From a virus, in IMG/VR virus record IMGVR_UViG_3300032245_000325, positions 1 to 42,961 of that record: 42,961 bases of DNA; one strand, written 5' to 3'. Positions 2,633 through 31,013 of the stretch are shown here, one piece after another (position 1 is the first letter of the stretch; every line of letters begins with the position of its first letter). The translations under genes were made by a program, and so were the position numbers. The notes beneath the pieces were generated by a model. The model saw only the letters and a list, made by a program, of their open reading frames with translations. It was not told where the DNA came from and searched no databases.

Positions 2633-3127
2633 ATGGGTACACGAAGCACTATCGCACTCGAGTTTGCAGACGGTACAGTTGAGCAGGTCTACTGCCACTG
2701 GGACGGTTACTTGGCACACAACGGCGAGATTCTTGCAGAACATTACAGCGATCCCTTTAAACTGCAGAAACTGATTGACTTGGGCGACTTGTCTAGTCTG
2801 AAGCCAGAGATCGGTGAAGCGCATCCCTTTAGCAAGTTTGGCTTGAAAGAAGAAGACCTAGACTTCAATGAGATGATGGCCCTGTACGAAAAGGCAGAGG
2901 CATTGGGTTGGTGTACATTTTACACACGCGATCGCGGCGAAGACTGCCCTGCTCGCAAGTACAAGAACGCAGACGAGTATTTTGACTGCTCACAGCAAGA
3001 AGAATACGACTACATTCTCCGAAATGTAGAGGGCACATCAACTTGGTTCGTGCGTTGCTATACTACAGACGGCAAGTGGCTTACACTGGCTGAGGCCAAA
3101 GCAACTCAAGCGGAGTTCACAGAATGA
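2633..3127 (+). CDS. Conserved phage protein of the MGTRSTIA type, 164 aa
   Basis: The ATG is preceded by TAAGGAGCATTTGAA and cassette 7. The N-terminus MGTRSTIALEF, then VYCHWDGYLAHNG and HYSDPFKLQKLIDLGDLS, matches a family I know as widespread in phage genomes and without assigned function. Several Cys, Trp and Asp residues are spread through the chain, but no catalytic motif is clear. It is the first gene of a unit of three overlapping genes (2633, 3124, 3389). Confidence 0.9.
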   Translation: MGTRSTIALEFADGTVEQVYCHWDGYLAHNGEILAEHYSDPFKLQKLIDLGDLSSLKPEIGEAHPFSKFGLKEEDLDFNEMMALYEKAEALGWCTFYTRDRGEDCPARKYKNADEYFDCSQQEEYDYILRNVEGTSTWFVRCYTTDGKWLTLAEAKATQAEFTE

Positions 3128-3396
3128 CAGGTTTTGAAAGCAAGCGGGCTTCGGCCCGTGACAAACTCAAGGAGCAGGGTATGAAGAAAGTTATCGTACG
3201 CACCGAATTGTATCAAGAACTTGAAGTGCCAGAATCGTGGGATCGATATGATGTCTACGACTTTTTGGCAGAGCATGAGTCGTTCCGTGAGGCCTTCCAA
3301 GGCGTCAGCAATGCAGATCAAACAGCCCGAATCGTTGACTTGGGCATCACAACCGAAACAGTAACCGAAATGGGTGAGGAGACCTTTGATGAGTAA
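3124..3396 (+). CDS. Conserved phage protein starting MTGFESKRA, 90 aa
   Basis: The ATG overlaps the stop of the previous gene (ATGA). MTGFESKRASARDKL is an N-terminus found in many phage hypothetical proteins, so I keep this start. An in-frame ATG at 3181 also has a very good AAGGAGCAGGGT site and could give a shorter form, MKKVIVRTELYQELEVP. The middle is an acidic helical region. Function unknown. Its end overlaps the next gene by eight bases. Confidence 0.85.
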   Translation: MTGFESKRASARDKLKEQGMKKVIVRTELYQELEVPESWDRYDVYDFLAEHESFREAFQGVSNADQTARIVDLGITTETVTEMGEETFDE

Positions 3397-3580
3397 GATG
3401 GCAGAATTGGACATGATGTCCTACGATATTGAGCAACTCTACATTGAGGGTGCCAATCCTGGAAGGATCGCTGAGATTTTGGACATCCAAATCGAAATGG
3501 TCTATGCATGGATGGAGATCAACGGTGTGGCAGAAGCGCCACAGGAGGTCTATGACCCGTTTGAAACAATCAATTCTTAA
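3389..3580 (+). CDS. Small HTH-like protein, 63 aa
   Basis: I chose the ATG at 3389 over the GTG at 3374 because TGAGGAGA lies at good spacing upstream. The segment YDIEQLYIEGANPGRIAEIL followed by DIQIEMVYAWM has the layout of a helix-turn-helix (residues about 11-45), like small phage HTH proteins. It may bind DNA and regulate the early arm. It is the last gene of the 2633 unit and overlaps the previous gene by eight bases. Confidence 0.8.
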   Translation: MSKMAELDMMSYDIEQLYIEGANPGRIAEILDIQIEMVYAWMEINGVAEAPQEVYDPFETINS

Positions 3581-3592
3581 TCCAAAAAATGG

Positions 3593-3621
3593 TTGACAAC
3601 GGACCAAAATCGTTGTACAAT
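3593..3621 (+). promoter_or_regulatory. Early promoter cassette 8, spacer hairpin
   Basis: TTGACA (3593-3598), 17-base spacer, TACAAT (3616-3621). CAACG (3597-3601) and CGTTG (3611-3615) form a stem around GACCAAAAT. The leader to the next ATG is unusually long, 61 bases. Confidence 0.85.
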
Positions 3622-3682
3622 TAGATATGGACGGTAAGGTGCTGTTCATATTTTACACAGACATTCACTCAAGGAGATTTTT

Positions 3683-4078
3683 ATGTCTACATTTAAAGTT
3701 GCAGGTGTTTCTAAGTTGGACGGTAAGTTCAAAGTTCGTTTTGCCAATGACATGCTTCGTGTCAAAGTTCTCGAGAAGAACAACCACACGCGGGTTGACT
3801 TGGTTGAGTTCGTTACCCCTCTTACCAAAGAGCAAGCAGTTGCTAAACTGATTGAGATGGACTTTGCCAAAGGCGATGCCGCTATCCAGGCTGCTCTCGA
3901 TGAGGCTTCTGAGAAGCGTACGGTTGCTCCTAAGGTTGCTAAGGCACCTAAGGCCAAAGCCGCTCCCAAGGCCAAGTCTAAGCCTTCATTGGATGCTATC
4001 GCCGCTCGTGCTAAGGCTACCAAGCCAGCAGTGACTAAGGCAGACGTTACCAAGCAATTGGAAGACGCACCTTATTGA
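3683..4078 (+). CDS. Basic protein with histone-H1-like tail, 131 aa
   Basis: The ATG follows AAGGAGATTTTT. Residues 1-75 form a folded-looking domain (MSTFKVAGVSKLDGKFKVRF...). Residues about 80-115 are almost only Lys, Ala, Pro and Val, with repeated KAPKAKAAPKAKSKP units like histone H1 or AlgP tails. Such tails bind DNA or RNA non-specifically, so a nucleoid-associated or DNA-compacting role is likely but inferred. The end is acidic. It has its own promoter (cassette 8). Confidence 0.85.
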   Translation: MSTFKVAGVSKLDGKFKVRFANDMLRVKVLEKNNHTRVDLVEFVTPLTKEQAVAKLIEMDFAKGDAAIQAALDEASEKRTVAPKVAKAPKAKAAPKAKSKPSLDAIAARAKATKPAVTKADVTKQLEDAPY

Positions 4079-4162
4079 TTAACCCCCTGCAGTGTGCGTA
4101 GGGGCAGTGCCAATAAGTCCTCTTCGATAACACCTAGCGGGGTATTCACTTCAAGGAGCGGT

Positions 4163-4381
4163 ATGAGCAGATTACAATTACATGGCAGACCTTATGTGGT
4201 GTTCAGTGCTAAGAACAAGGAACATCGTCGTTGGTTTGCAGATTTTAACAGGACGGGTGCGTGGGGCCGTTGCCCAGTTCGATTCGTAATTCCAGATGAT
4301 CACGGTGATTTGATTACCATGATCCAGCGAGAACTGATTCGGTTTTACGTGGAAAAAGAATTTGGCAAGATTGACAGTTGA
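4163..4381 (+). CDS. Conserved phage protein of the MSRLQLHGRPY type, 72 aa
   Basis: The ATG at 4163 follows TCAAGGAGCGGT; longer in-frame starts upstream have no ribosome binding site. The sequence (HGRPYVVFSAKNKEHRRWF, CPVRFVIPDDHGDLI) belongs to a small family I have seen in many phages, function unknown. No promoter cassette precedes it, so it is probably read from cassette 8. Its TGA lies inside the next -35 box. Confidence 0.85.
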   Translation: MSRLQLHGRPYVVFSAKNKEHRRWFADFNRTGAWGRCPVRFVIPDDHGDLITMIQRELIRFYVEKEFGKIDS

Positions 4382-4406
4382 CCTTTTGTACACAATACTG
4401 TAATAT
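4378..4406 (+). promoter_or_regulatory. Early promoter cassette 9 (divergent copy)
   Basis: TTGACC (4378-4383) with TAATAT 17 bases on (4401-4406). The -10 is weak and TATAGT at 4404 is an alternative at longer spacing. The -35 contains the stop codon of the previous gene. The odd palindrome ACTGCATTGCAGT (4414-4426) lies just downstream. Confidence 0.6.
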
Positions 4407-4447
4407 AGTATCAACTGCATTGCAGTATAAAACAAAAGGAAATGAAA

Positions 4448-4717
4448 ATGTTGAAAATCAATAAAGGCACAAAGACTCACAAGTTGTTCACCGCGTTGCA
4501 AAACGGTGAGAAGTTGACTGCATCACAGGCTGAAAAGCGTTTCGGTATCAAGAATATCGCCGCTGAAGCAAGCCGTATCCGTCAAGCAGGTTACGCTGTT
4601 TATGCCAACAGCCATGTTGCTGGTAACCATGTAAACGTTACCCAATATGAGATCGGAATGCCATCACGTCGCGTTGTTGCGGCTGGCTACAAAGCCATCC
4701 AATTAGGCCTAGTCTAA
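4448..4717 (+). CDS. Winged-helix-like conserved phage protein, 89 aa
   Basis: Two in-frame ATGs lie at 4442 and 4448. The second has the better distance from AAAGGA. The pattern LTASQAEKRFGIKNIAAEASRIRQAGYAV (split here in reading, about residues 25-53) resembles a winged helix-turn-helix in small phage proteins often called putative regulators. The C-terminal half holds a beta-rich stretch and IGMPSRRVVAAGYKA. A 13-base palindrome (4414-4426) in the leader could be its own operator. It is followed by a structured region ending in a strong terminator. Confidence 0.85.
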   Translation: MLKINKGTKTHKLFTALQNGEKLTASQAEKRFGIKNIAAEASRIRQAGYAVYANSHVAGNHVNVTQYEIGMPSRRVVAAGYKAIQLGLV

Positions 4718-4785
4718 TTGGTTGCTCCAAGTCCGGGGGTAGTGTCCCGGCCGGTTGAGTTGCTCCCTCAATCGTGTTAGTGTTG
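4718..4785 (+). other. Structured non-coding stretch with two hairpins
   Basis: Between the end of gene 4448 and the terminator at 4786 there are two further potential hairpins: CCGGG with CCCGG (about 4733-4750) and TTGAG with CTCAA (about 4755-4771). Together with the terminator they make a three-hairpin RNA of about 100 bases, a possible small RNA or 3' protective structure. No internal promoter is obvious. Confidence 0.4.
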
Positions 4786-4820
4786 GAAAGGGCCGCTCGG
4801 GAGAGCCGCCCTTTCTTTTT
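4786..4820 (+). terminator. Strong intrinsic terminator
   Basis: GAAAGGGC (4786-4793) pairs with GCCCTTTC (4808-4815), with an inner GCTC/GAGC stem and a short loop, followed by five more T residues. It separates gene 4448 from promoter cassette 10. Confidence 0.85.
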
Positions 4821-4822
4821 GG

Positions 4823-4851
4823 TTGACCATTCTGGTAAAAGACAGTATAAT
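4823..4851 (+). promoter_or_regulatory. Early promoter cassette 10
   Basis: TTGACC (4823-4828), 17-base spacer ATTCTGGTAAAAGACAG, TATAAT (4846-4851). The spacer has TCT and AGA flanking GGTAAA. Confidence 0.85.
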
Positions 4852-4873
4852 ATACACATACAGAAAGCACATC

Positions 4874-5272
4874 ATGCAATACTACATCGACGCAACACCA
4901 TTCGTAACCAAATACATCGATTCGCTCTTGCCCAGCATGTTCAAGCAATTGGGCTTGACCCGTAGCCGCAAGTTCCTGCAGATCAAGGTAGACTCCGAAC
5001 TGGAAGACAGCGGAACCTGTGTGCCATTAGAGGGTATTGACACCTACTTGATTGTGCTCAAGCCCAACAGAGACCTGCATGAGTTCGGTATCGCCCTAGC
5101 ACATGAGTTGACGCACGTGGCTCAGTTCGCTAAGGGCATCTTAAAGTTGACTCCCAAGGGCAAGAAGTGGTGCGGTAAGTTCTACGGAAAGAATGTGGCT
5201 TATTTGCAACAACCTTGGGAAGTGCAGGCCTTTAGTCGTCAGGAACTTATTTTCCGTAGGGCTATTGACTAA
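4874..5272 (+). CDS. SprT-like zinc metallopeptidase, 132 aa
   Basis: The ATG at 4874 is the first after promoter cassette 10; an upstream TTG start would lie inside the promoter. The protein has a HExxH zincin motif (HELTH, residues 77-81) and a PWE at 114-116 whose Glu is a likely third zinc ligand. This arrangement resembles small SprT-like phage metallopeptidases. The substrate is unknown; host or protein-DNA adducts are possible. No signal peptide, so it should be cytoplasmic. The ribosome binding site is weak (CAGAAAG). Its stop overlaps the next -35 box. Confidence 0.85.
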   Translation: MQYYIDATPFVTKYIDSLLPSMFKQLGLTRSRKFLQIKVDSELEDSGTCVPLEGIDTYLIVLKPNRDLHEFGIALAHELTHVAQFAKGILKLTPKGKKWCGKFYGKNVAYLQQPWEVQAFSRQELIFRRAID

Positions 5273-5293
5273 TTGGTAAAAAGACGTTACAAT
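5265..5293 (+). promoter_or_regulatory. Early promoter cassette 11
   Basis: TTGACT (5265-5270), 17-base spacer AATTGGTAAAAAGACGT, TACAAT (5288-5293). The TAA of the peptidase gene overlaps the end of the -35 box. Confidence 0.85.
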
Positions 5294-5330
5294 ACACACA
5301 TACAGAAACAAAACAGAAAGAGAGCAAGAT

Positions 5331-5519
5331 ATGACAATTACCGTAGCACAAATGATCGCAAAGTTACAGACCCTTCCACAGAACTTGGAAGTGGAAGTCA
5401 CTATGAACATGGAGTATCAACGCCCAATGGACCTAGATGACTTTGAAGTATGGACCGACAAGGACGAAGCGGGCGTGGTCCGCAAGATCCTAATGATTGG
5501 TGACGTTAACTATTCCTAA
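5331..5519 (+). CDS. Small conserved phage protein, 62 aa
   Basis: The ATG is preceded by a purine-rich AGAAAGAGAGCAAGAT leader from cassette 11. MTITVAQMIAKLQTLPQNLEVEV resembles the N-terminus of the product at 2147 (VKDLIEQLQ...PEAEV), which suggests paralogues. The rest is acidic. Function unknown. It is the first of a run of five close or overlapping genes reaching 6235. Confidence 0.8.
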   Translation: MTITVAQMIAKLQTLPQNLEVEVTMNMEYQRPMDLDDFEVWTDKDEAGVVRKILMIGDVNYS

Positions 5520-5529
5520 GGAGCAGACT

Positions 5530-5643
5530 ATGTTGAAATTGATAGGTTGGTGTACTGTAGTTTGGGCCATGTTCCACTTTGGTATTGCCCAACTGATTGC
5601 AATTTACTTCATGGTAATCCTTTCTTTCATCGCAGGAGTTTGA
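5530..5643 (+). CDS. Tiny membrane protein, 37 aa
   Basis: The ATG follows TAAGGAGCAGACT at ideal spacing. The peptide is almost entirely hydrophobic, with aromatic residues and a single Lys near the N-terminus (MLKLIGWCTVVWAMF...), enough for one long or two short membrane spans. It lies one base before the next ATG. It could be an inner-membrane exclusion peptide or a regulator of a membrane enzyme, with no direct evidence for either. Confidence 0.7.
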   Translation: MLKLIGWCTVVWAMFHFGIAQLIAIYFMVILSFIAGV

Positions 5644-5644
5644 C

Positions 5645-5857
5645 ATGGGATATCGAGTACTAGACACTGGAGACCGTATGCGTGACAACTACGGTCCACG
5701 CAAGGGCCTAGAAGGTCCATTTAACTTCTCAGGTAGGATCCTGTACTACGATCCTAAAGAGGGCTCCTACTATGATCCTACTACGGACTTCTATGTGGAA
5801 CGCACAGAGATGGACTTCTTGAACAACGAACTGATGAGGAAGTTAGACCGTGCCTAA
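5645..5857 (+). CDS. Conserved phage protein with a YYDPKEGSYYDP motif, 70 aa
   Basis: The ATG follows GCAGGAGTTTGAC directly after the membrane peptide. The block GRILYYDPKEGSYYDPTTDF (residues about 30-49) is a short motif I know from many unrelated phage hypothetical proteins. The chain is charged and soluble. Its end overlaps the next gene by eight bases. Function unknown. Confidence 0.8.
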   Translation: MGYRVLDTGDRMRDNYGPRKGLEGPFNFSGRILYYDPKEGSYYDPTTDFYVERTEMDFLNNELMRKLDRA

Positions 5858-6053
5858 GTTCCACATCTATACCGAAACAACCAAGTGGCCCGAGGGTGAA
5901 GGTGGTAACCATGTCTATGTATTCCTAGACAAACCAACAGGCCGTACAGCCAAAGCCATGGGATATGTTCCTCTAGGCAAAACCAAAGTGTTCCGATTTA
6001 AGGAACCACTGACACTTGACCTACGCGGTCGTACATTTGAAGCATTGCAATGA
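5850..6053 (+). CDS. Unknown small early protein with GTG start, 67 aa
   Basis: The frame opens with a GTG at 5850 inside the end of the previous gene (MPKFHIYTETTKW...). A basic, beta-rich composition is visible, with a Gly/Glu loop near residue 17. The stop TGA overlaps the ATG of the next gene. The double overlap supports translation by coupling. The family is not recognised. Confidence 0.75.
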   Translation: MPKFHIYTETTKWPEGEGGNHVYVFLDKPTGRTAKAMGYVPLGKTKVFRFKEPLTLDLRGRTFEALQ

Positions 6054-6235
6054 TACACATCCATCCTGACCTAAACGAATTCGAAGTCCTGGTTGTAGCC
6101 GATCACCTCAAGTCCAAGGGCATAGAGTCCTACACTCTAAGCAAGGGCAATGGTTGCATCTGGGCCTACTACGGTGTAATAAATGAGTATTACATTTTTG
6201 AGGCGGGTCATTTGGTTGACATCCAGATAGATTGA
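6050..6235 (+). CDS. Unknown small early protein, 61 aa
   Basis: The ATG overlaps the preceding TGA (ATGA). The sequence MIHIHPDLNEFEVLVVADHL suggests an alpha/beta fold. Its last codons carry the TTGACA -35 box of promoter cassette 12 (6216-6221), so coding and promoter functions share the same bases. Function unknown. Confidence 0.75.
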   Translation: MIHIHPDLNEFEVLVVADHLKSKGIESYTLSKGNGCIWAYYGVINEYYIFEAGHLVDIQID

Positions 6236-6244
6236 CACTATAAT
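6216..6244 (+). promoter_or_regulatory. Early promoter cassette 12, inside the upstream gene
   Basis: TTGACA (6216-6221), 17-base spacer, TATAAT (6239-6244). The -35 and most of the spacer are coding for the gene at 6050. The GGTAA element is absent here. Confidence 0.9.
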
Positions 6245-6274
6245 ACACACATCAACAGCAAAAAAGGAGTTGAT

Positions 6275-6586
6275 ATGAAAAAGGTTTTAATTGCAGGTTT
6301 GATCGCAATGAGTGCAGTGGGTTCTGCCCAAGCATGGGGCGAGCGTGAACAAGGCGCATTGGCAGGCATGGTTGGCCTGTGGGCATATCAACGCCTTAGC
6401 CAACCCAATGTGGTTGTGCAAAGCCAGCCACAAGTGATCTATCAACAGACGCAGACCTTGCCCGCTCCTGTTTACCAAACAGAGATTCGCACCCTGCCAC
6501 AGTATAGCCCTACCTATCCTGGCCCTAACGGTTGCTTCCCAGTCTACACCCAGCAGGGTCAATTTGCAGGCCAAATATGCCGTTAA
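6275..6586 (+). CDS. Exported protein with Gln/Pro-rich tail, 103 aa
   Basis: The ATG follows AAAAAGGAGTTGAT. Residues 1-20 form a clear Sec signal peptide: KK, then a hydrophobic core, then AQA as cleavage site before WGEREQG. The mature part has a short hydrophobic Gly-rich stretch and then a Gln, Pro and Tyr-rich region with two Cys near the end (CFPVY...ICR) that could form a disulfide in the periplasm. A role at the envelope, such as superinfection exclusion, is inferred from export only. Confidence 0.85.
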   Translation: MKKVLIAGLIAMSAVGSAQAWGEREQGALAGMVGLWAYQRLSQPNVVVQSQPQVIYQQTQTLPAPVYQTEIRTLPQYSPTYPGPNGCFPVYTQQGQFAGQICR

Positions 6587-6597
6587 AAGGAAACACA

Positions 6598-6810
6598 ATG
6601 AAACACCTAATCCTAATCCTAGCCCTTGCGGCTACCCAGGCATTCGCAGGCCCCTTCGATGAGAAGATTGCCCAAGTCGAAGCAGAGATTGCCCAACGAG
6701 AAGTAGCAATCAAGCAGATGCAGGCCGAGGGCAAACCAACCGGACGCTTTGAGTTTGTGGTGTGGCGTTTACGCAACGAACTACAGAAACTGAAAGATCT
6801 CAACGGTTGA
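6598..6810 (+). CDS. Exported small coiled-coil protein, 70 aa
   Basis: I chose the ATG at 6598, preceded by AAAAGGAAACACA, instead of a longer frame that lacks a ribosome binding site. Residues 1-17 are a signal peptide ending AFA before GPFDEK. The mature part is about 53 residues of heptad-like helix (EKIAQVEAEIAQREVAIKQM). It is 11 bases behind another exported protein, so the two probably act together in the periplasm. Its TGA lies within the next -35 box. Confidence 0.85.
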   Translation: MKHLILILALAATQAFAGPFDEKIAQVEAEIAQREVAIKQMQAEGKPTGRFEFVVWRLRNELQKLKDLNG

Positions 6811-12321: not shown

Positions 12322-13014
12322 TTATATACTGAGTTCTTGATCGTGAAGCCTGTCAATCAGACGAGTCATACCATCTATCACGTGATCATTACGCAGACTT
12401 TTATAGACCAAGTTTGGTATACTGAATTCACCTGCAGGTGTGGCAAGACCCTGTTTACGATATTTGCGTAGTAATTTTAGCGCCTTTCTACAGACTTGTA
12501 AAGAGCCTGTCATCGTGGCCCGTTGCAGTATTTTTGTCCAGAGTGCCACCTTGTGCTCTAGATCTTGTTGATCATACTGGGGCTGTACTCGTTGTGGTTT
12601 GCGTAGCCAACGATCGTCTGATACACTGAACAGGCCAGCGGTAACTCCTGGTGAGCGATGATCTTCTATGTAGAGTTCTACAGGTATACCGTGGATTTCT
12701 AATTGGTGTTGACGCTTGTAGAGCAAGCGTTTGCTGTCAAACAGTTCGGCAACTTCACGGTCACACCTAACACTGTCAAAGTTTGCAATGATGTGTAGAT
12801 CAATGTCACTGGCTGCGGTATAGGTATAGTTGACATTACCGCCTGTGATCACAACGTCGTTGACATCAACGGGCACATCTACAAATTCTAGGAAGTCTTC
12901 TGCCATGCGTAGTAGGGCACCTCGAACTTCGGATTTGAGGCGATCGTGGTCCCAAATCTTGGGATTTAATGTAGGGTTACGGCCTACGGGTTCTGCAAAC
13001 TCATTTTGAATCAT
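12322..13014 (-). CDS. Nucleotidyltransferase-superfamily protein, 230 aa
   Basis: The core GGNVNYTYTAASDIDLHII (residues about 58-76) has the Pol-beta-type GG/GS...DxDxH signature, with a further acidic strand VELYIED downstream. This is a minimal nucleotidyltransferase domain followed by a helical C-terminal domain rich in Arg and Lys (RKALKLLRKYRKQG) that could bind nucleic acid. Similar proteins occur in aquatic T4-like phages, with unknown substrates. The late core CATAAATA is only six bases before its ATG. Confidence 0.8.
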   Translation of the reverse strand: MIQNEFAEPVGRNPTLNPKIWDHDRLKSEVRGALLRMAEDFLEFVDVPVDVNDVVITGGNVNYTYTAASDIDLHIIANFDSVRCDREVAELFDSKRLLYKRQHQLEIHGIPVELYIEDHRSPGVTAGLFSVSDDRWLRKPQRVQPQYDQQDLEHKVALWTKILQRATMTGSLQVCRKALKLLRKYRKQGLATPAGEFSIPNLVYKSLRNDHVIDGMTRLIDRLHDQELSI

Positions 13015-13045: not shown

Positions 13046-13600
13046 ATGATAAAGAAAAAATATCCAGGTTACCTACTGGTCGCTAATCCTAATAATCCCA
13101 GAGATGAACTCAGTAAAGCCGTGCTTCTCTGTGTAAACCATGCGGGAAACCTAGCCATAGGCCTACAAATTAACAATCCCCTAGAAGACATTGATCTACA
13201 ACATGTAGCAGATAATCTAGGCATGGAATCCTCAGTCAACGCACCATTATGGTTTGGGGGCAACATATCACAGAACAAAATACATGTAGTTCACAGCAAC
13301 GATTGGCGGGGATTGAGTACAGTAAAAATGAATGACGAAATATCAGTCACTAACGACATCAGTGTGTTAGCCGCTATAGCCAGGGGTGAAGGTCCTAGAT
13401 ATTTTAGAGCCTGTGCAGGCTATTGGTTATGGGATGACGGGCGTATGGATCGAATGTTAAATCCCAGAGCCAAAGATGAGCCCATTAAATGGGAAATCGC
13501 TCCCGCTACAATGGACAGCATATTTGATGGTGAAGGACCTGATCAATGGCGGGCAGTGTTAGACAAAGCCGCCAAGTATCAAGTTGACGCTTGGTTTTAA
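13046..13600 (+). CDS. AlgH/UPF0301-like protein, 184 aa
   Basis: I chose the ATG at 13046 because the one at 13037 overlaps the promoter core. GYLLVANPN near the N-terminus, then LSKAVLLCVNHAGNLAIGLQINNPL, matches the start of the bacterial AlgH/YqgE family (UPF0301). LWFGGNISQNKIHVVHSN and a later GYWLWDDGRMD also fit. The family's biochemical role is unclear. No ribosome binding site is present. Its stop overlaps the convergent gp41 gene by four bases. Confidence 0.85.
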   Translation: MIKKKYPGYLLVANPNNPRDELSKAVLLCVNHAGNLAIGLQINNPLEDIDLQHVADNLGMESSVNAPLWFGGNISQNKIHVVHSNDWRGLSTVKMNDEISVTNDISVLAAIARGEGPRYFRACAGYWLWDDGRMDRMLNPRAKDEPIKWEIAPATMDSIFDGEGPDQWRAVLDKAAKYQVDAWF

Positions 13601-15048
13601 TCCTTTTCTGGATTTAGACTGTTTAGCATAGAGCGCATCAAAGGTGCGCTGTTGGGTTTGATGTTCATTGATTTAATACTCATGCCCTGTTTAGGATCTA
13701 CCTCAATGATCTCCCCAGTCTCGGGATCTGTAGTGGTACTAACTGTACTGGTACGTTTTAAGTTGGCATACTGATTGCCTACAGGACTTTGTGGTTTATT
13801 GTAACCGCCCTGATCTTCTTCATCACCTAGATCACTGATGCGTAGGGTATCCAAATTAAATTCTAGATCAACTTTCTGCCCAACACCACTTGAACTACGA
13901 GTCTTCATAAATTGAATTTGATAGCGTCCACGTTCCTTCATAGCACGACTAGTAAAGATACCAATCACATTATCCGCCGTCATAATCTTACTCAAACCGC
14001 CCGAGATATGACTGTGATCAAACTCAATTTCTTCAACAGCACTACGATTCAACTGTGACGCTGTAACCGTGATACATTGTGTTTCCATTGCCAAATTTCG
14101 AATCTCTTCTGACACATATTTGTCTTTAACAAATAGATCACTAGGACTAACCTTCACACTTAAAGGCATCATTAAATCGAGGTAATCTATTAACAAAACG
14201 TCTGGTTTGTGACCGGTTTTGACCTGATATTCTTTCAAATAGGCTCGAATATCGTTACAATTTTTGCCTGAGGGCATATACTTAATCTGTAGATGTCCTG
14301 ACTTCTTTTCCAGCATTTTAACTTTGAGTTCAACATCATCGATATTTCGGAAAATGTCTCTAGTACCAATCCCTGTGGTCATACTATCCAAACGCATAGA
14401 CACTAAACCCTCTGAAAGTTCAAATGTTAGATAAATCACATTTAATCCAGCCATTGCCCAATTAACACCTAAGTTAGCAAGGAATAATGATTTACCACCA
14501 CCCGATCCTGCACAGAAAATATTCAACTCTCCTCGATTAAATCCACCATACAACTTCTTATCAATACTAGGCCATCCTGTACTAATTTGTCCATTACCGT
14601 CTTTTAACTTAGTTAATCGAGCCCTGGGGTCATCAAAATAGTCTGTGCCCATGTCTTTGTTCAAACTAATCTGTATAGCATCTTTAATTAATTTTTCCAC
14701 AGGACCATAGTCACCTGCTTCTAATAAATCACTGCTCTTAATGATAGCACGTTCTAGCCCTTTGTGACGACTAAAGTTTTCAAACTCGTCCATAAGCCAA
14801 TCATAATTTTCTTTGGGCAATGCCACAGGATTAAATTGACTCTTTGTTGATGCGTTGACGATATTTGCCTCGGGCATCACCTTGTATTCATCAACATACT
14901 TGTTGATAAATTCTGCGCTATCCTGTAGTCGTTGATCAAAGTTTTCAGGGTCAAAAATGTTTTGACAGCGGATAAAAGTTTCTGCATCCGAAAGGAACAT
15001 CTCTAGATACAGTTTCTGCATTTCATAATCGTAATTTGTTTTATTCAT
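13597..15048 (-). CDS. 41: Replicative DNA helicase gp41 (DnaB-like), 483 aa
   Basis: This is the T4 gp41-type hexameric 5'-3' helicase of the replication fork. The Walker A GSGGGKS is at residues 181-187, the Walker B VLLIDYLDLM at about 284-293, and a helical N-terminal domain of about 150 residues precedes them, followed by a RecA fold with QLNRSA and the C-terminal HISGGLSKIMTADNVIGI. Length is near T4 gp41 (475). It overlaps the primase gene by eight bases, which fits translational coupling of the primosome partners. Confidence 0.95.
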   Translation of the reverse strand: MNKTNYDYEMQKLYLEMFLSDAETFIRCQNIFDPENFDQRLQDSAEFINKYVDEYKVMPEANIVNASTKSQFNPVALPKENYDWLMDEFENFSRHKGLERAIIKSSDLLEAGDYGPVEKLIKDAIQISLNKDMGTDYFDDPRARLTKLKDGNGQISTGWPSIDKKLYGGFNRGELNIFCAGSGGGKSLFLANLGVNWAMAGLNVIYLTFELSEGLVSMRLDSMTTGIGTRDIFRNIDDVELKVKMLEKKSGHLQIKYMPSGKNCNDIRAYLKEYQVKTGHKPDVLLIDYLDLMMPLSVKVSPSDLFVKDKYVSEEIRNLAMETQCITVTASQLNRSAVEEIEFDHSHISGGLSKIMTADNVIGIFTSRAMKERGRYQIQFMKTRSSSGVGQKVDLEFNLDTLRISDLGDEEDQGGYNKPQSPVGNQYANLKRTSTVSTTTDPETGEIIEVDPKQGMSIKSMNIKPNSAPLMRSMLNSLNPEKD

Positions 15049-16024
15049 TTATACTCTCTAATTTTTTCTTCAGTAGATTTATTTTTATCTCTCCTGCAAC
15101 CCTGTAGTGTAAGATTGTGGTTAGTACATACAAGCGTCCATATTTCTTTACAGCATCTGCCACGTCTTTTACATCATCACCCCATGGAGGTAGACTAACT
15201 GTCCAATTATTTTTTACAGCATGTTTGAGCATCTTAGCACCCGGGCGATCTCGATCAGGTACACATATGATTTCTCTGCCTAATGCTTGTAATCTCGCCA
15301 CTTGAGTATCATTGGGCTCATTAGTCATAATGGCAACTCCGTCTATAGCAATGGCGTCAAACTGCCCTTCTGTAACTACGACATACTGCCTATCACGACC
15401 TTGTCTATCCATATTGAATACGTATCCACTTTGACTATCTGTAAGGTATTTAGGTTTACCTTCTGTTATTTTTCTTCCAGTATATCCAACAACCTTACCA
15501 TCTTGATAAAAAGGTATCAATATTCTGTCTACATATCCCGGTGCAGGTGACCACATCCAGTTGTACCAGTCTATGTTCATTCCCCTGCCTAATAGGTATT
15601 CTATAATAGAAGTTACATCTTCGCCTTCAGCAATCCACGATGTTAATGTTTTGCTGTCTTCGGGTAACTGTATTTCATTAAGTGTGAAATTTAATGCCTT
15701 GGCCATTGAGGGCATATTTTCTTGATACTTGAGTGCAACAATACCCAACTTACCTACATCATTATCACCAAGACCTAACCATTTGAACAGTTGCTTAGTG
15801 TTACCGCTTAATAGTTTACCAGGTGACCATCCCGCTTTGAATCCACAGTTAAAACAATGATATGTCCAAGCGTCACCTTCTGATTTTATACCACCGCGCT
15901 TGCGTGTGTCTGGTTTTTCACCTTTATGGTGGCAACAGACTGCATTAAAACTTACCCAACCACCTGATGTATTTTTACGATTCGGTGGGAGTAGTGTTAA
16001 GAGTGTAGACAGTATTTCATTCAC
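15041..16024 (-). CDS. 61: DNA primase gp61, 327 aa
   Basis: A zinc-binding domain is visible, with Cys30, Cys31, His32 and His33 followed by CFNC at 57-60. A TOPRIM core follows, with VTEGQFDA (217-224) carrying the catalytic Glu and PDRDRPGA (256-263) carrying the DxD acids. This matches the T4 gp61 type, which makes RNA primers on the lagging strand with gp41. It lies directly upstream of gp41 and ten bases after the virion-like gene at 16034. Confidence 0.95.
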   Translation of the reverse strand: MNEILSTLLTLLPPNRKNTSGGWVSFNAVCCHHKGEKPDTRKRGGIKSEGDAWTYHCFNCGFKAGWSPGKLLSGNTKQLFKWLGLGDNDVGKLGIVALKYQENMPSMAKALNFTLNEIQLPEDSKTLTSWIAEGEDVTSIIEYLLGRGMNIDWYNWMWSPAPGYVDRILIPFYQDGKVVGYTGRKITEGKPKYLTDSQSGYVFNMDRQGRDRQYVVVTEGQFDAIAIDGVAIMTNEPNDTQVARLQALGREIICVPDRDRPGAKMLKHAVKNNWTVSLPPWGDDVKDVADAVKKYGRLYVLTTILHYRVAGEIKINLLKKKLESINE

Positions 16025-16033
16025 TATGCTAGT

Positions 16034-16873
16034 TTAGCATCTGTAAAGAACTTTGTCAAATGATCCGTAGTAGTTTGGATTATTATTGTTAGATTCGCCG
16101 GGCGCAGTTGCTGGAATATAAGTGAATCGAACATAACTGAAAATACCATTAAAGTTAAAATAATCAATACCAGAAAACCCATTATAAGTTTGAGTTGCGA
16201 TGGTAACATAACGATTAAAACTCGAAGGACTATTATACAATGTTCCTTCTATTTTGAGTGTACCTTTGAAGTTGGTCATGTAGACCGCGGCTGTGTGTAA
16301 TGCAGAGTTACTATTGTATTCTGGATATGCGTAGATGTTACCACTGCGATGTTGATACTTGTGAATCGAATCATCAAACACTCTTTCAAATGCAACCACT
16401 TCTTGGCTGGGTTGTAGCACTGGATAAACGTCTTGTGCCACAGTTAAAAATCCAGGAACACCGTAATATGTATTGCTGTATGCTGGTAAGTAAGTGCCGT
16501 CTGAGTCTTGATATTTTACGCTGAATTGATAGTTACTAACATCTAAGTCCATAGTATCACTTTCAGATAATACAAGTTCTGCTAGTCCTCGAGTTGTCAA
16601 TGTTGTGCCGTCATCTAATATTGTCAATTGTTTTTCTAGTAGCAGGCGTTGTGAAGTTGCATCAAATAACGAAAATACATAAACATCGTTTTGATTGATA
16701 GGAATACGTTTTTGATCGCTATTCTTAAATTGAATACGAACTTTGTTTTTAATACCTTTTTGTATTTTTAGATCGCGTTGATACATAACTCGATTGACTC
16801 CTTTGATTATTGGGTCCAAATCTAATATAACGTCGAGTGTATTAGAATATAAATAGACTGGTAAACTTTGCAT
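16034..16873 (-). CDS. Probable virion protein with baseplate/fibre-like N-terminal domain, 279 aa
   Basis: The N-terminal half has YQRDLKIQKGIKNKVRIQF, then KNSDQKRIPI and a DxxSQR-like stretch, a pattern of BppU-like N-terminal domains found in phage baseplate and fibre proteins. The C-terminal half is beta-rich with Tyr, Ser and Asn, typical of surface-exposed virion proteins. A late core GATAAATA lies six bases before the ATG. It sits oddly between replication genes. Its exact position in the virion is unknown. Confidence 0.6.
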   Translation of the reverse strand: MQSLPVYLYSNTLDVILDLDPIIKGVNRVMYQRDLKIQKGIKNKVRIQFKNSDQKRIPINQNDVYVFSLFDATSQRLLLEKQLTILDDGTTLTTRGLAELVLSESDTMDLDVSNYQFSVKYQDSDGTYLPAYSNTYYGVPGFLTVAQDVYPVLQPSQEVVAFERVFDDSIHKYQHRSGNIYAYPEYNSNSALHTAAVYMTNFKGTLKIEGTLYNSPSSFNRYVTIATQTYNGFSGIDYFNFNGIFSYVRFTYIPATAPGESNNNNPNYYGSFDKVLYRC

Positions 16874-16892: not shown

Positions 16893-17276
16893 ATGATTTC
16901 ACCCGGGGCTTTCCAAACTAACTATCCTTTTGTTTCTTGCGTAAAAAGCAATGATATCGAATACGTAGGAATTATTATCAACCTAGATAGTTTTGTCACC
17001 AGCATTTATGACATATCTAAAATACAGGCAGAAGATGACCGTAAATTGTTTTTAGAAATGGGAGAAATATGGTGGTGGGAAAGTAATAGAAAGATACCTA
17101 TCAATATTTTTCTAAAGAAAGAAATGCAGGTATTTAAGTATGCAATAAAAACATTCAACAGCAAAGATATAGAACTAATCTTTGGCCCCGCTGTTAATCT
17201 TAGCGAGATTGCTGAAAAACGCATCAAACGAAAGTTGATACAACTAGTGAGAAATCCTAGGAGTATTCGTAACTAA
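16893..17276 (+). CDS. Conserved T4-like phage protein MISPGAFQ, 127 aa
   Basis: The start MISPGAFQTNYPFVSCVKSN, then EMGEIWWWESNRKIPINIFL and FNSKDIELIFGPAVNLSEI, is a pattern I recall from T4-like phage hypothetical proteins. The C-terminus is basic (KRIKRKLIQLVRNPRSIRN), suggesting nucleic-acid contact. No clear ribosome binding site. It runs head-on into the DnaE-like gene, with 20 bases of overlap. Confidence 0.75.
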   Translation: MISPGAFQTNYPFVSCVKSNDIEYVGIIINLDSFVTSIYDISKIQAEDDRKLFLEMGEIWWWESNRKIPINIFLKKEMQVFKYAIKTFNSKDIELIFGPAVNLSEIAEKRIKRKLIQLVRNPRSIRN

Positions 17277-17835
17277 TACTTTCACATATTAGATTCATTT
17301 GCACAACGATAGCGGCCGCATAGGCTATGGCGTGTGCCTTTTTAAAATAATATTCATCTCCGACGGGTTTCTGCCAAACTTCGTTCTTCACGACGGACCA
17401 GTCTTTTCCAATCAAGTATCGTTTCGCTGGGCGGATTATTGCCAACACAGCGGCTAACTCCTCGATACTCTTTGGCTTCATCTTTCTCAGAATCTGTCCA
17501 TGTCCATTCACATGGAATAGCAAATTGCTGAAGTCGTCTTGTTCCAATAAATCCCATAATGGTTCCTGATTAAGTAGTCGGATTAGATGTTCTTCACTTT
17601 GGACATCTTTGTAAATGCCCACGTTCAAAAAATCTATCTTAAAGTATCCTCGTTCTTCCGCTTCCTTGTAATCCAAACTTGCACTACCTGTTAGAGGATT
17701 TACTGGGATACTACTACTATAAACGCCTGTGTTGTGTTTACGGTTGACACCTTTTTCAAAAATAGTTGCAGGAACATGTTTTATGATGTCCAAAATCTTA
17801 TTTCTGTCAGCAAAGTCAATATCAATATCCGGCAC
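17257..17835 (-). CDS. Minimal DnaE-like (PolIII alpha palm-derived) protein, 192 aa
   Basis: Four blocks align in order with bacterial DNA polymerase III alpha. PDIDIDFADR (residues 2-11) matches PDFDxDF with its catalytic acids. KHNTGVYSS (33-41) matches the HAxGV region, FKIDFL (65-70) the third catalytic Asp strand, and MKPKSIEELAAVLAIIRPA (119-137) the PxxFEDxxAxxALFRPGP block. A C-terminal YYFKKAHAIAYAAAIVVQM matches the FNKSHxxAY helix. PHP, most of the fingers and all C-terminal domains are missing. The GTG start lies inside the kinase gene (14-base overlap). Polymerase activity is not proven; a structural or regulatory replication role is possible. Confidence 0.75.
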   Translation of the reverse strand: MPDIDIDFADRNKILDIIKHVPATIFEKGVNRKHNTGVYSSSIPVNPLTGSASLDYKEAEERGYFKIDFLNVGIYKDVQSEEHLIRLLNQEPLWDLLEQDDFSNLLFHVNGHGQILRKMKPKSIEELAAVLAIIRPAKRYLIGKDWSVVKNEVWQKPVGDEYYFKKAHAIAYAAAIVVQMNLICESISYEYS

Positions 17836-18598
17836 GTCTAATCTCGTCGTATGTTGGGGCGTAGTTACCGCGATGCTGTACTGTTATTCCAGCCGCGACG
17901 TTAGCAAATATTATACTTTTTTCTATGTCTTTTGTATATAGATATTGGAAAGCCAAAGCCGCCAAAAACGTATCGCCACAACCACAAACATCGTTGACTT
18001 CAACTAATTTGGTTGGACAATAGATGTCGTGATGAGGAACTTTTGCGCCGTGTTCGCCCATTGTGACAATCAGCCCAGTACATTCACTTTTGACCCTACT
18101 GTATTCTAATTCATTGATCTTTACCCACGCACCTTGAAAACGTTCCAGGTCAGTTTTCTTCGTATCAATAAACACAGAAATAGAGTGCTCTATAATGCTT
18201 TCAATATTTTCGTAAGTAAGAAAACCTTTATCGTAATCGGAAATTACAACAGCATCGTATGTGTCTATGGGAAATGGAGTACGACCACTCCATGACACAA
18301 TTTCTGGTTCAGTATCAACACGTAGCATGTGTTGGCCAGATCGTTTATCTATGTATCTAGTTTTAATGATGTCTTCTTCGTTGGAGACAAAGTCTACATA
18401 TATTCCTAGATTTTCAAAATTCTTTTTGACGTTTGCGGCCATACCTGGCACATTTTTTGTTTCAGCAATTTTGATCACAGGCACAGGTGCTTCGGGACTT
18501 AGACGATCTATAGTTCCGATTTTATACTCATCAATACAACGATCACCGATTAGTAATACGTTGAATGAGTCCTGTTGTTGAATGTTCTGTTCTGTCAT
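17822..18598 (-). CDS. hldA: PfkB-family kinase, heptose-7-phosphate kinase-like (HldE domain I), 258 aa
   Basis: GDRCIDEYKIGTIDRLSPEAPVPVI (read from residue 18) has the typical HldE/RfaE N-terminal signature with SPEAPVP. GMAANV (52-57) and SDYDKG (120-125) follow, and DVCGCGDT (203-210) is the ribokinase-family active site, with Cys where Thr or Ala is usual. It would phosphorylate D-glycero-beta-D-manno-heptose 7-phosphate. It is shorter than the usual domain, about 300-320 residues. Its first 56 bases overlap the adenylyltransferase gene in another frame. Confidence 0.8.
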   Translation of the reverse strand: MTEQNIQQQDSFNVLLIGDRCIDEYKIGTIDRLSPEAPVPVIKIAETKNVPGMAANVKKNFENLGIYVDFVSNEEDIIKTRYIDKRSGQHMLRVDTEPEIVSWSGRTPFPIDTYDAVVISDYDKGFLTYENIESIIEHSISVFIDTKKTDLERFQGAWVKINELEYSRVKSECTGLIVTMGEHGAKVPHHDIYCPTKLVEVNDVCGCGDTFLAALAFQYLYTKDIEKSIIFANVAAGITVQHRGNYAPTYDEIRRAGY

Positions 18599-18935
18599 AA
18601 AATTTTATTTCTTTACAAAGGTGTGAACCTAATATAGGTTTGTCTTTGTAATCGCTACCCTTGATCATAATGTCAGGCCGATATGTTTCTAGAATATATT
18701 CTAATTCTTCGTCACTGTTAAAGAACCAAACATCATCAACTGATTTTAAATTCTTTAACACGTATTGTCTATCAAATTGATTATTGATAGGTCTATCTGG
18801 TCCTTTTAATTCTTGTACTCTACTATCTGTGTCAATGGCAACTAACAGATAATTTCCTTGACTTTTGGCATATTCTAACATTTCAATATGCCCTCTGTGT
18901 AAAATATCAAAAGTTCCGTTGACAAATATTTTCAT
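18543..18935 (-). CDS. hldC: Heptose-1-phosphate adenylyltransferase-like (HldE domain II), 130 aa
   Basis: GTFDILHRGH (residues 7-16) is the nucleotidyltransferase HxGH signature. IKGSDYKDKPILG (about 91-103) and EHSTTGLIQRI at the end match HldE C-terminal domains (KGGDY and STT motifs). It would transfer AMP from ATP to heptose 1-phosphate. A glycerol-3-phosphate cytidylyltransferase is the main alternative, made less likely by the neighbouring kinase and epimerase. In E. coli both activities are in one HldE chain, kinase first. Here they are separate and in reverse order. Confidence 0.8.
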   Translation of the reverse strand: MKIFVNGTFDILHRGHIEMLEYAKSQGNYLLVAIDTDSRVQELKGPDRPINNQFDRQYVLKNLKSVDDVWFFNSDEELEYILETYRPDIMIKGSDYKDKPILGSHLCKEIKFYDRTEHSTTGLIQRITNR

Positions 18936-19705
18936 ATATTATAGTAAGTTCTTAATAGTCCTACATCTGCACAGGTATATTCCTGATATTGATGTTTTAG
19001 ATTTTCCGGCATAGGTATATATTCTATACGTGCATTGTATTTGTCGGCAATTGTTTTTGCCACAGTTTCAAATGATGTTGCCTTACCTGTACCAACATTC
19101 CAAATTCCCGTGTCTGGTACACTTAAAAAATGTTTATGTATTTTGCAAACAGTTTCAACCGGAACAAAGTCCCTGGCAAATTTGTCACTGCCTTCAAATA
19201 GTTTTATTACGCCAGTTTCCCTGGCCTGTTTTTCAAACTTGTAATAGGGGCTTGCTTGATCGCCTTTGTGGTCTTCATGCGGTCCGTAGACATTGAAATA
19301 TCGAAACCCTTGGACCTTAATAGGCCAAGTACCTGCTAGAAATGTTATATACCTATCAAACAAATACTTACTCCATGCATATGGACTTTGTGGATTTACA
19401 GGCGCACTTTCATTAAAATTTTTACCTTGACCATAGACGCTTGCGGAACTAGAGTATTGAAAGTTTACATTATGTTTTAGACATTCGCTAACTAACCATC
19501 TACTGAAATCATAGTTATGTTCGAGTACTAATCCTACATTTGTTTCAGTGGTAGATGTTAATGCACCTAGGTGAATTACCCAATCTAATCCATTTACTGA
19601 GGGGAGATTGTCACCAGGTTCATAAAAAGATAACTCGTGATCTTTTAGATGTTTTACCAGATTTTGTCCAATAAAACCTTTATGTCCTGTAATTAAAATT
19701 TTCAT
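18932..19705 (-). CDS. hldD: ADP-L-glycero-D-manno-heptose 6-epimerase-like SDR, 257 aa
   Basis: GHKGFIG (residues 7-13) is the Rossmann NAD(P) motif. The Y109-x3-K113 pair (YAWSK) is the short-chain dehydrogenase active site, with SSSASVYG before it. GFRYFNVYGPHEDHKGDQAS closely follows the HldD consensus. It would epimerise ADP-heptose for lipopolysaccharide. It is shorter than the E. coli enzyme (about 310). It overlaps its neighbours by four bases on both sides, in one operon with the kinase and adenylyltransferase. No GmhA or GmhB is seen in the window. Confidence 0.85.
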   Translation of the reverse strand: MKILITGHKGFIGQNLVKHLKDHELSFYEPGDNLPSVNGLDWVIHLGALTSTTETNVGLVLEHNYDFSRWLVSECLKHNVNFQYSSSASVYGQGKNFNESAPVNPQSPYAWSKYLFDRYITFLAGTWPIKVQGFRYFNVYGPHEDHKGDQASPYYKFEKQARETGVIKLFEGSDKFARDFVPVETVCKIHKHFLSVPDTGIWNVGTGKATSFETVAKTIADKYNARIEYIPMPENLKHQYQEYTCADVGLLRTYYNI

Positions 19706-20061
19706 TTTTGACTATCTCCTTTACCGACTCTGTAATTATCTTCAACGCTGTCGGGTGTACTAACCTCAATGAGAACCCCTTCTTCTAGACAAATTACCTG
19801 ATGAGGGAACATAGGGGGATTGTGCCAAGTGTCGTTTACTTTAAGTTCTATTTCATTAACATCGGCAGTTGTAGTATCAATCCATTTAACTAAAAATTTT
19901 CCACTAATCACAAACCATGTTTCATCTTTTTCAGCATGAAAGTGCATACTGAACTTTGCACCTGTGTTGAACTTTAATAGTTTACCGCAGTACTTGTCAT
20001 TAGTAGCAAATATAAATTCATTGCCCCAACCCTTTTCAACAAATCCATTAAGTCGTGTCAT
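19702..20061 (-). CDS. Cupin protein, sugar-isomerase-like, 119 aa
   Basis: A single cupin barrel is indicated by GAKFSMHFHAEKDETWFVISG (residues about 34-54), with His-x-His and Glu metal ligands, and by a second strand WHNPPMFPHQV. The start VEKGWGNEFIFA resembles mannose-6-phosphate isomerase type II or related nucleotide-sugar cupins. It is the first gene of the sugar cassette, overlapping hldD by four bases. It probably acts on a phosphosugar. The exact substrate is unknown. Confidence 0.8.
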   Translation of the reverse strand: MTRLNGFVEKGWGNEFIFATNDKYCGKLLKFNTGAKFSMHFHAEKDETWFVISGKFLVKWIDTTTADVNEIELKVNDTWHNPPMFPHQVICLEEGVLIEVSTPDSVEDNYRVGKGDSQK

Positions 20062-29816: not shown

Positions 29817-29824
29817 TTATTTAG
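29817..29824 (-). promoter_or_regulatory. Late-type promoter CTAAATAA
   Basis: The core TAAATA (minus strand, 29818-29823) lies five bases before the ATG at 29812. Confidence 0.5.
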
Positions 29825-31013
29825 TTAAAACGGGCTCTTCATTTATCAATGCTTGTATTCGATCTTTTAACTTGTAATAGTATTGAGGCATCTCGTTAAC
29901 AGGAGTAAGTTTTTCATAACGATCCAATCTTGCAATAAAATTCTTTAACTGCTCTTTATTTGGCCCTGTTGTACCTTCTGCTTGATTTCCTATGAACTCT
30001 TCAAAATAACCTCGATTTTTATCTGACAACCATTTTTTGGGTATAAAATCACCAATCCGATTTCCTAGTGCATAAATGTTTAAATCTTGTGGTACACTGA
30101 TCTTGTTTAAGTTTAAAGGTATATCACCTAGGCCGTTATCGTTTAACCATTGATAAATTTCAGGATATATTTCTACATTTAAAATACTGATGCTGGCTTG
30201 TACACGCATGTTTATTCCTGTTGCCCACATGGTTTTAACATTTTTTAACCACCGATCTAAATCTAACCCACCGCGTATGAATTCACCTTCTTTGCCGGCG
30301 GCATCAATACTGTAGGTCAACTTCACAGTATTTTTCTCTTGTAGGCGAGTAATAGTCTTTTCAAATCGTGTACGGAAGTTGTCGCTATAATTACCATTTG
30401 TAGTAATTGATATCACACAAGATTTAGGTAGTATATTCATATCTAAAAGATCATCTGCAAAACGATAAAACATAGGATCGACGCTAGGTTCGCCACCGTA
30501 AAGATTGATTACTTGTAATGTTTCTGCATTTTCTCTAATCTTTTTATTCAATGTATCTAAACTTTCTTGAACTAGGGCCGGCTCAAGTTTGCCTAGATTA
30601 GGAAATATCTGAGTCATCTGTTGCCAAGTAGTACTGGCGTTTGGACCACAACTCATACAATGTAGATTGCAGGTATCTCCAAACTCTAGTTCTATAATTT
30701 CTACTATTGCCTGATTATTTTTTCGACGAGTATCTAGCCAATGCATTCGATTGATATGATTGGCTGAGTTTGATATGTTTTCTAACATTCTAAAACTTTT
30801 GCCGCCTGCGTGTTCGTCGTCCCAACAAGCATGGCACGCAACTGCTTCTTTTCCTTCTAGGAATTCTTTTTGTGTTTGTGCTACACGGGCGTCTGCATCA
30901 TCGGGTGCCATGCCAGGTACCTTACAACAGAACCGTTGCCAATTACAATATAATTTAACGCCCCATATAGTCCATGGACTATTACAATATTTTTGAGGTA
31001 CAAAATTCTGCAT
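29817..31013 (-). CDS. Radical SAM protein of the twitch/SPASM type, 398 aa
   Basis: C115-x3-C119-x2-C122 (CNLHCMSC) is the radical SAM iron-sulfur motif and YGGEP at about 168-172 is the GGEP motif. The first 65 residues hold many Cys in a CNSPW...YC...CC...CHAC pattern, like a SPASM/twitch auxiliary cluster placed before the catalytic barrel. Such phage enzymes are known next to terminase genes in aquatic T4-like phages; the substrate is unknown. A peptide or virion-protein modification is likely but inferred. Confidence 0.9.
   Translation of the reverse strand: MQNFVPQKYCNSPWTIWGVKLYCNWQRFCCKVPGMAPDDADARVAQTQKEFLEGKEAVACHACWDDEHAGGKSFRMLENISNSANHINRMHWLDTRRKNNQAIVEIIELEFGDTCNLHCMSCGPNASTTWQQMTQIFPNLGKLEPALVQESLDTLNKKIRENAETLQVINLYGGEPSVDPMFYRFADDLLDMNILPKSCVISITTNGNYSDNFRTRFEKTITRLQEKNTVKLTYSIDAAGKEGEFIRGGLDLDRWLKNVKTMWATGINMRVQASISILNVEIYPEIYQWLNDNGLGDIPLNLNKISVPQDLNIYALGNRIGDFIPKKWLSDKNRGYFEEFIGNQAEGTTGPNKEQLKNFIARLDRYEKLTPVNEMPQYYYKLKDRIQALINEEPVLTK

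Follow-up and report, generated by a model that had tools for sequence, protein, structure and literature searches.

Split minimal forms of PolIII alpha, the C-family DNA polymerase, were described by comparative genomics in the 'group 2.2' jumbo phages by Iyer et al. 2021 (PMC7824862), who suggested that the split enzyme might contribute to the synthesis of one strand or to repair, and who put it forward as a model of what PolIII alpha was like in its ancestral form. A single truncated PolIII alpha has been noted in phage CBB (CBB_328) and a PolIII alpha in Atu_ph07 (gp316), and the passages on these two proteins make no mention of a second half (PMC5259590, PMC6102473). These are the same phages and the same split system as the one considered here, and the gene order indicates that CBB_328 and gp316, as those passages present them, are most likely the N-terminal unit. 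Searches of the open papers found no later functional or laboratory work on split PolIII alpha. The PHROGs database holds the two parts of the system as phrog_11127 (N unit) and phrog_11778 (C unit).

We analysed a 42,961-base stretch of viral DNA, referred to below as the window. Its genes for UvsX, UvsY, SSB, a UvsW-type helicase, terminase and tail sheath indicate that it is a fragment of a T4-like jumbo phage. The protein encoded at 17257..17835 on the minus strand is a further member of the published split minimal PolIII alpha; specifically, it falls in phrog_11778 and is about 34-54% identical to the C units of cultured phages. It has the same C-unit and the same break as the system of Iyer et al., together with, in its relatives, a distant N-unit and the company of a family B polymerase, but unlike the published pair the window fragment shows the C unit only. 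Like E. coli DnaE, the protein has the motifs in the same order, with equivalents of D401/D403/D555, K553, RPG, FNKSHxxxY and the steric-gate H760; unlike DnaE, its chain lacks the PHP, GS palm half, HHH, OB and tau-binding regions, and its thumb and fingers are cut down. Because the idea of a split enzyme is already published, the value of the present analysis lies in confirmation and in sharper predictions. What it adds is residue-level conservation, co-occurrence examined from both sides, the occurrence of the system in a phage of 141 kb, and a full-size Cbastvirus DnaE that is split at the same loop.

The C-terminal unit and its conserved residues

The open reading frame at 17257..17835 is real; it encodes 192 amino acids from a GTG start and overlaps the stop of the gene upstream by 14 nt. 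Residues 3-186 match phrog_11778, annotated as 'DNA polymerase', with an E-value of 4e-67. The match to Pfam family PF17657 (DNA_pol3_finger) is weak, at 18.6 bits against a cut-off of 22 bits, and a phmmer search of the PDB returned PolIII alpha only, with marginal E-values of 0.007-0.9. Full-length homologues are present in about 60 sequenced phages, and relatives are encoded at 581 of 598 candidate places in viral contigs, which shows that the reading frame is not due to chance.

Motifs were mapped with a MAFFT alignment of the protein and E. coli DnaE. This agrees with an earlier reading made from the sequence only, which had recognised PolIII alpha blocks in their usual order within 192 residues. 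PDIDIDF aligns to PDFDVDF of DnaE (400-406), so that D3 and D5 of the catalytic strand DIDID (D3, D5, D7; 17815..17829, minus strand) correspond to D401 and D403. KHNTGVY aligns to the HAGGV block and YFKIDFL to LVKFDFL (553/555); within the latter, KID (17632..17640, minus strand) holds K66 and the third catalytic aspartate D68, equivalent to K553 and D555. IIRPA aligns to LFRPG (639), with R135 and P136 (17428..17433, minus strand) as the RP of the fingers RPG(P) motif (639-640 in E. coli). Finally, FKKAHAIAY (F164-Y172; 17320..17346, minus strand) aligns to FNKSHSAAY (756-764), where K166 corresponds to K758 and H168 to H760, the proposed steric gate of E. coli DnaE (PMC8485763).

The residues D3, D5, D7, K66, D68, R135, P136, K165, H168 and Y172 are invariant in 36 close relatives. 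In a wider set reaching down to 34% identity, D3, D5, D7, K66, D68, R135, P136, K165, H168 and Y172 are invariant; F164 is invariant in both alignments, and K166 is nearly so in the wider one. The alignment of the 36 C-half sequences has more than 50 invariant columns, and pN/pS measured against six relatives is 0.15-0.19. The protein is therefore conserved and under purifying selection. Conservation of Asp3, Asp5 and Asp68 had been named as a check by the sequence-only reading, which held that the catalytic acids are kept and the protein is not decaying; both alignments and the pN/pS values bear this out.

The AlphaFold2 model of the C-half, computed from the 36 sequences, has a mean pLDDT of 83.9, lowest at both ends, and predicts a long C-terminal helix at 166-191. 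A Foldseek search of the PDB with this model answers the other proposed check, that of a DnaE palm fold: the first ten matches are all PolIII alpha (chains of 4iqj, 2hnh, 5fku, 5fkw, 2hqa, 4jom and 5fkv), followed by noise. The match is partial, with a TM-score by query of about 0.37 and no E-value below 1e-3, as would be expected for half of a palm with trimmed fingers. When a narrow profile of the C-half was aligned by hhalign to one E. coli DnaE sequence, it matched 528-642 with a weak score and a probability of just 11%, so the identity of the C-half rests instead on the motif alignment, PHROGs and the fold search.

The single-chain architecture of bacterial DnaE and PolC is absent from this protein. 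What is present is the second half of the palm with a reduced thumb and fingers: the chain starts at PDID and carries the DxD and then the KxD palm strands, followed by reduced fingers. Nor does it have the GS motif that a single-chain member of the Pol beta superfamily would show before DIDID, which begins at residue 3. The protein is almost certainly the C-terminal unit of a split, two-gene C-family polymerase.

The separate N-terminal half

About 40 residues separate PDFDVDF of E. coli DnaE from the nucleotide-binding GS motif that precedes it, GRGSG (361-365). The window protein starts at PDIDIDF and thus contains the second palm half only; it has neither the GS (GRGS) motif nor the rest of the palm's N-terminal half, which makes it unlikely to be an enzyme alone. 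The sequence-only reading correctly counted PHP, the C-terminal domains and most of the fingers as lost, but its list of losses has to be extended to this half of the palm.

We searched the whole genomes of relatives with Pfam model PF07733. The window protein matches model positions 96-113, and a second match, to positions 19-97, lies at 97516-97743 in Phosso, 59089-59316 in Paride and 149134-149364 in RaK2. In the relatives the N-half is a separate gene of about 170 codons, as a rule tens to hundreds of kb from the C-half, and its products end in '...WGVGRGSSVASYVLFLIGVHRINS...DLDIxEFLK' followed by the stop. A profile of the N-half aligns to residues 322-395 of E. coli DnaE, while the C-half aligns from D401. 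In other words, the two halves abut, with just a few DnaE residues between them, and the break falls in the DnaE loop between '...FERFLN' and 'PDFDVDF'. GRGSSV is invariant in the N-half sequences. The AlphaFold model of the N-half has a pLDDT of 91.0, and each of its first 15 matches in a PDB fold search is either PolIII alpha or an entry that bears the plain name 'DNA polymerase'. A profile search of the rest of the 42,961-base window found no match to the N-half; since the window is a fragment, the N-half of its own phage is not visible there.

Both halves were present in all eight complete phage genomes tested. Among the listed phage records, 57 of the 61 with the C-half are also among those listed for the N-half, and a profile search found the N-half in three of the remaining four (Vibrio phage 2.275.O, Alishewanella phage Slicko01 and fENko-Kae01); the fourth record, 109 kb long, belongs to a phage type of about 345 kb. 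Checked from the N-half side, RAS14 has both halves, and the two remaining N-half phage records carry larger DnaE proteins. Two metagenomic contigs of 270 and 364 kb, close relatives of the window whose proteins are 72% and 67% identical to that of the window, contain both halves about 180 kb apart. For metagenomic contigs chosen for the N-half, the C-half was also found in 10 of 15 (12 of 17 counting two phage records). We rejected the other five as one-half counterexamples, because they are also without the neighbouring replicative helicase and so probably miss that region of the genome. Among the phage records and contigs compared, no genome clearly has one half only.

Several apparent cases of minimal or unpaired halves were discarded. 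The 47 matches in Streptomyces phages were not accepted as minimal forms, the one that we opened being an ordinary DnaE of 1,160 aa. Tenacibaculum phage Larrie, a candidate for a lone N-half, has a two-gene, full-size DnaE, and the record named 'Staphylococcus phage SA 1306 Kay', another such candidate, has an open frame of 1,073 aa.

The split of Larrie extends to a second Cbastvirus, Cellulophaga phage phiST: in both, a full-size DnaE is encoded in two adjacent genes (Larrie 3146-6726; phiST 2998-6598). The enzyme is broken at the same palm loop as the minimal pair (FERFLN / PDID). Unlike the minimal pair, its genes are adjacent, it is of full size with PHP, fingers and HHH, and its first product has an extra tail of about 55 aa; the split is apparently independent of that in the minimal pair. 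The palm loop may be a place at which phage C-family polymerases have broken more than once, and further N-terminal pieces may be found in phrog_13169 and phrog_7513. The tail, '...ENLEEGDTIIKY', has a faint likeness to an intein remnant; the 74-residue junction stretch of Larrie, where an intein might have caused the split, gave no intein or Hint match in Pfam.

Genomic surroundings

The C-half gene stands in a conserved order: polymerase half, convergent small gene, structural-type protein, primase and DnaB-like helicase. In the window the convergent gene (16893..17276, plus strand; phrog_11637) shares 20 nt with the polymerase gene at the 3' end of the latter. It is followed by a member of phrog_14467, a virion structural protein by PHROGs (16034..16873, minus strand), which has the same place in relatives, by a DNA primase (15041..16024, minus strand; phrog_47, E=3e-40), and by a DnaB-like replicative helicase (13597..15048, minus strand; PF03796, E=8e-17; phrog_19, E=1e-71). 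This order is common to the window, Phosso, Paride, RaK2, Vibrio phage 2.275.O, fENko-Kae01, Atu_ph07 and PBECO4, and is kept with small changes in Slicko01. All relatives examined have an opposite-strand gene at the position of phrog_11637, within a replication cluster that is otherwise co-directional, and in most of them, though not in Vibrio phage 2.275.O, its 3' end overlaps that of the polymerase half. The N-half lies near a clamp-loader gene in RaK2 and Paride.

A family B polymerase was found in every complete relative tested, in keeping with the earlier suggestion that the C-family fragment exists alongside one; a search of the whole window record with PF00136 gave no match. The split pair also accompanies a family B polymerase in Slicko01, which at 141 kb is below jumbo size. 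In this phage (OQ508956.1) the two halves are about 11 kb apart, and the family B matches fall in two separate frames of 578 and 322 aa, so that this polymerase may be split too.

Other genes of the window deserve mention. Adjoining the polymerase half, inside the replication cluster, is a sugar-nucleotide cassette (17822-20061, minus strand) consisting of a PfkB-type kinase, a heptose-1-phosphate adenylyltransferase-like protein, a short NAD-dependent epimerase and a cupin. Its kinase and adenylyltransferase are separate overlapping genes and not one bifunctional HldE, and the cassette is not at the same place in the annotated relatives that we opened. A 230-aa protein at 12322-13014 (minus strand; phrog_36119) has a Pol beta-type nucleotidyltransferase signature, GGNVNYTYTAASDIDLHI, and scores 18.4 bits against PF01909, below the cut-off of 21. 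A radical SAM protein (29817-31013, minus strand; PF04055, E=1e-9) is flanked by the gene for the terminase large subunit on one side and a virion structural-type gene on the other.

Possible activity and role of the pair

The best overall explanation, which we hold with high confidence, is a two-gene minimal C-family polymerase in which the window protein is the C-unit. In the mechanism that we propose, the C-unit would supply the Mg2+-binding half of the palm with its reduced thumb and fingers, and the partner, a protein of about 170 aa encoded outside the window, would supply the palm half with the NTP-binding GRGS motif. The two proteins would bind each other and rebuild one palm of the Pol-beta fold, with the GS/NTP-binding part from the N-unit and the metal-binding aspartates and steric gate from the C-unit. 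The complex would use dNTPs; retention of the steric-gate histidine, H168, predicts such selectivity. The Cbastvirus enzymes, if both of their genes are expressed and work together, suggest that a replicative polymerase can bear a split at this loop, and so speak for reconstitution. Against assuming direct association is the distance between the genes of the two halves, and DNA binding could be weak given the much reduced thumb and fingers. On balance, we think that the two halves are probably active as a heterodimer.

Three alternatives have very little probability. That the 192-aa protein is a self-contained minimal nucleotidyl transferase, as the sequence-only reading had proposed, agrees with the presence and invariance of the three catalytic aspartates, K66 and the steric-gate histidine. 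Yet the protein has no GS motif and is short of half the palm sheet, the window holds no N-half, and the genomes that carry the C-half have a matching, co-occurring gene for exactly this GS/NTP-binding part, so we consider a lone transferase very improbable. Still less credible is a decoy role, in which the protein would bind the clamp or the polymerase subunits of the host. All that could be cited for it is a C-terminal QMNLI string with a faint likeness to a clamp-binding motif; its Q falls in the DnaE helix region after FNKSH (YQTLWLK), inside the predicted helix 166-191, and thus reads as inherited core structure, while a decoy would have no need of invariant catalytic residues. The decoy, clamp-binder and template-switch ideas of the same reading found nothing positive in their favour. 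Least probable of all, to the point of being negligible, is a horizontally acquired dnaE of which a decaying fragment is left. Its one attraction is length (192 aa against about 1,100 aa for DnaE), and it is contradicted by the pN/pS of 0.15-0.19, a near-constant length, the conserved gene order and the many invariant columns among the 36 sequences.

More weight is due to a two-protein complex without polymerase activity, a structural or regulatory part of the replisome that might, for example, link primase and helicase to the clamp loader. The strong reduction of thumb and fingers is what such a complex would lead one to expect, as is the placement of the C-half near primase and helicase genes and of the N-half near clamp-loader genes, and the family B polymerase can replicate the genome. 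However, the catalytic triad, K66 and the steric-gate histidine do not vary even among sequences as little as 34% identical, nor does GRGSSV in the N-half, and both are as retained catalysis predicts. We regard an inactive complex as unlikely.

With so little thumb and fingers, and with the PHP, clamp-binding and OB regions missing, an active heterodimer would be expected to be a short-range polymerase. The primase, helicase and clamp-loader genes nearby suggest that it extends primers or fills gaps alongside the family B replicase; this role is the least certain step of the proposal, and we offer it tentatively. It is conceivable, at somewhat less than an even chance, that two proteins of about 170-190 aa form a working heterodimeric C-family core that hands primers to the family B replicase or shares a strand with it. 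We know of no smaller C-family polymerase core than this one would be.

If the pair is active, it would show how little of PolIII alpha suffices for templated synthesis, and that two genes can share the encoding of one catalytic palm. A single phage fork would then use a C-family polymerase together with one of family B, the former of the bacterial and the latter of the archaeo-eukaryotic type.
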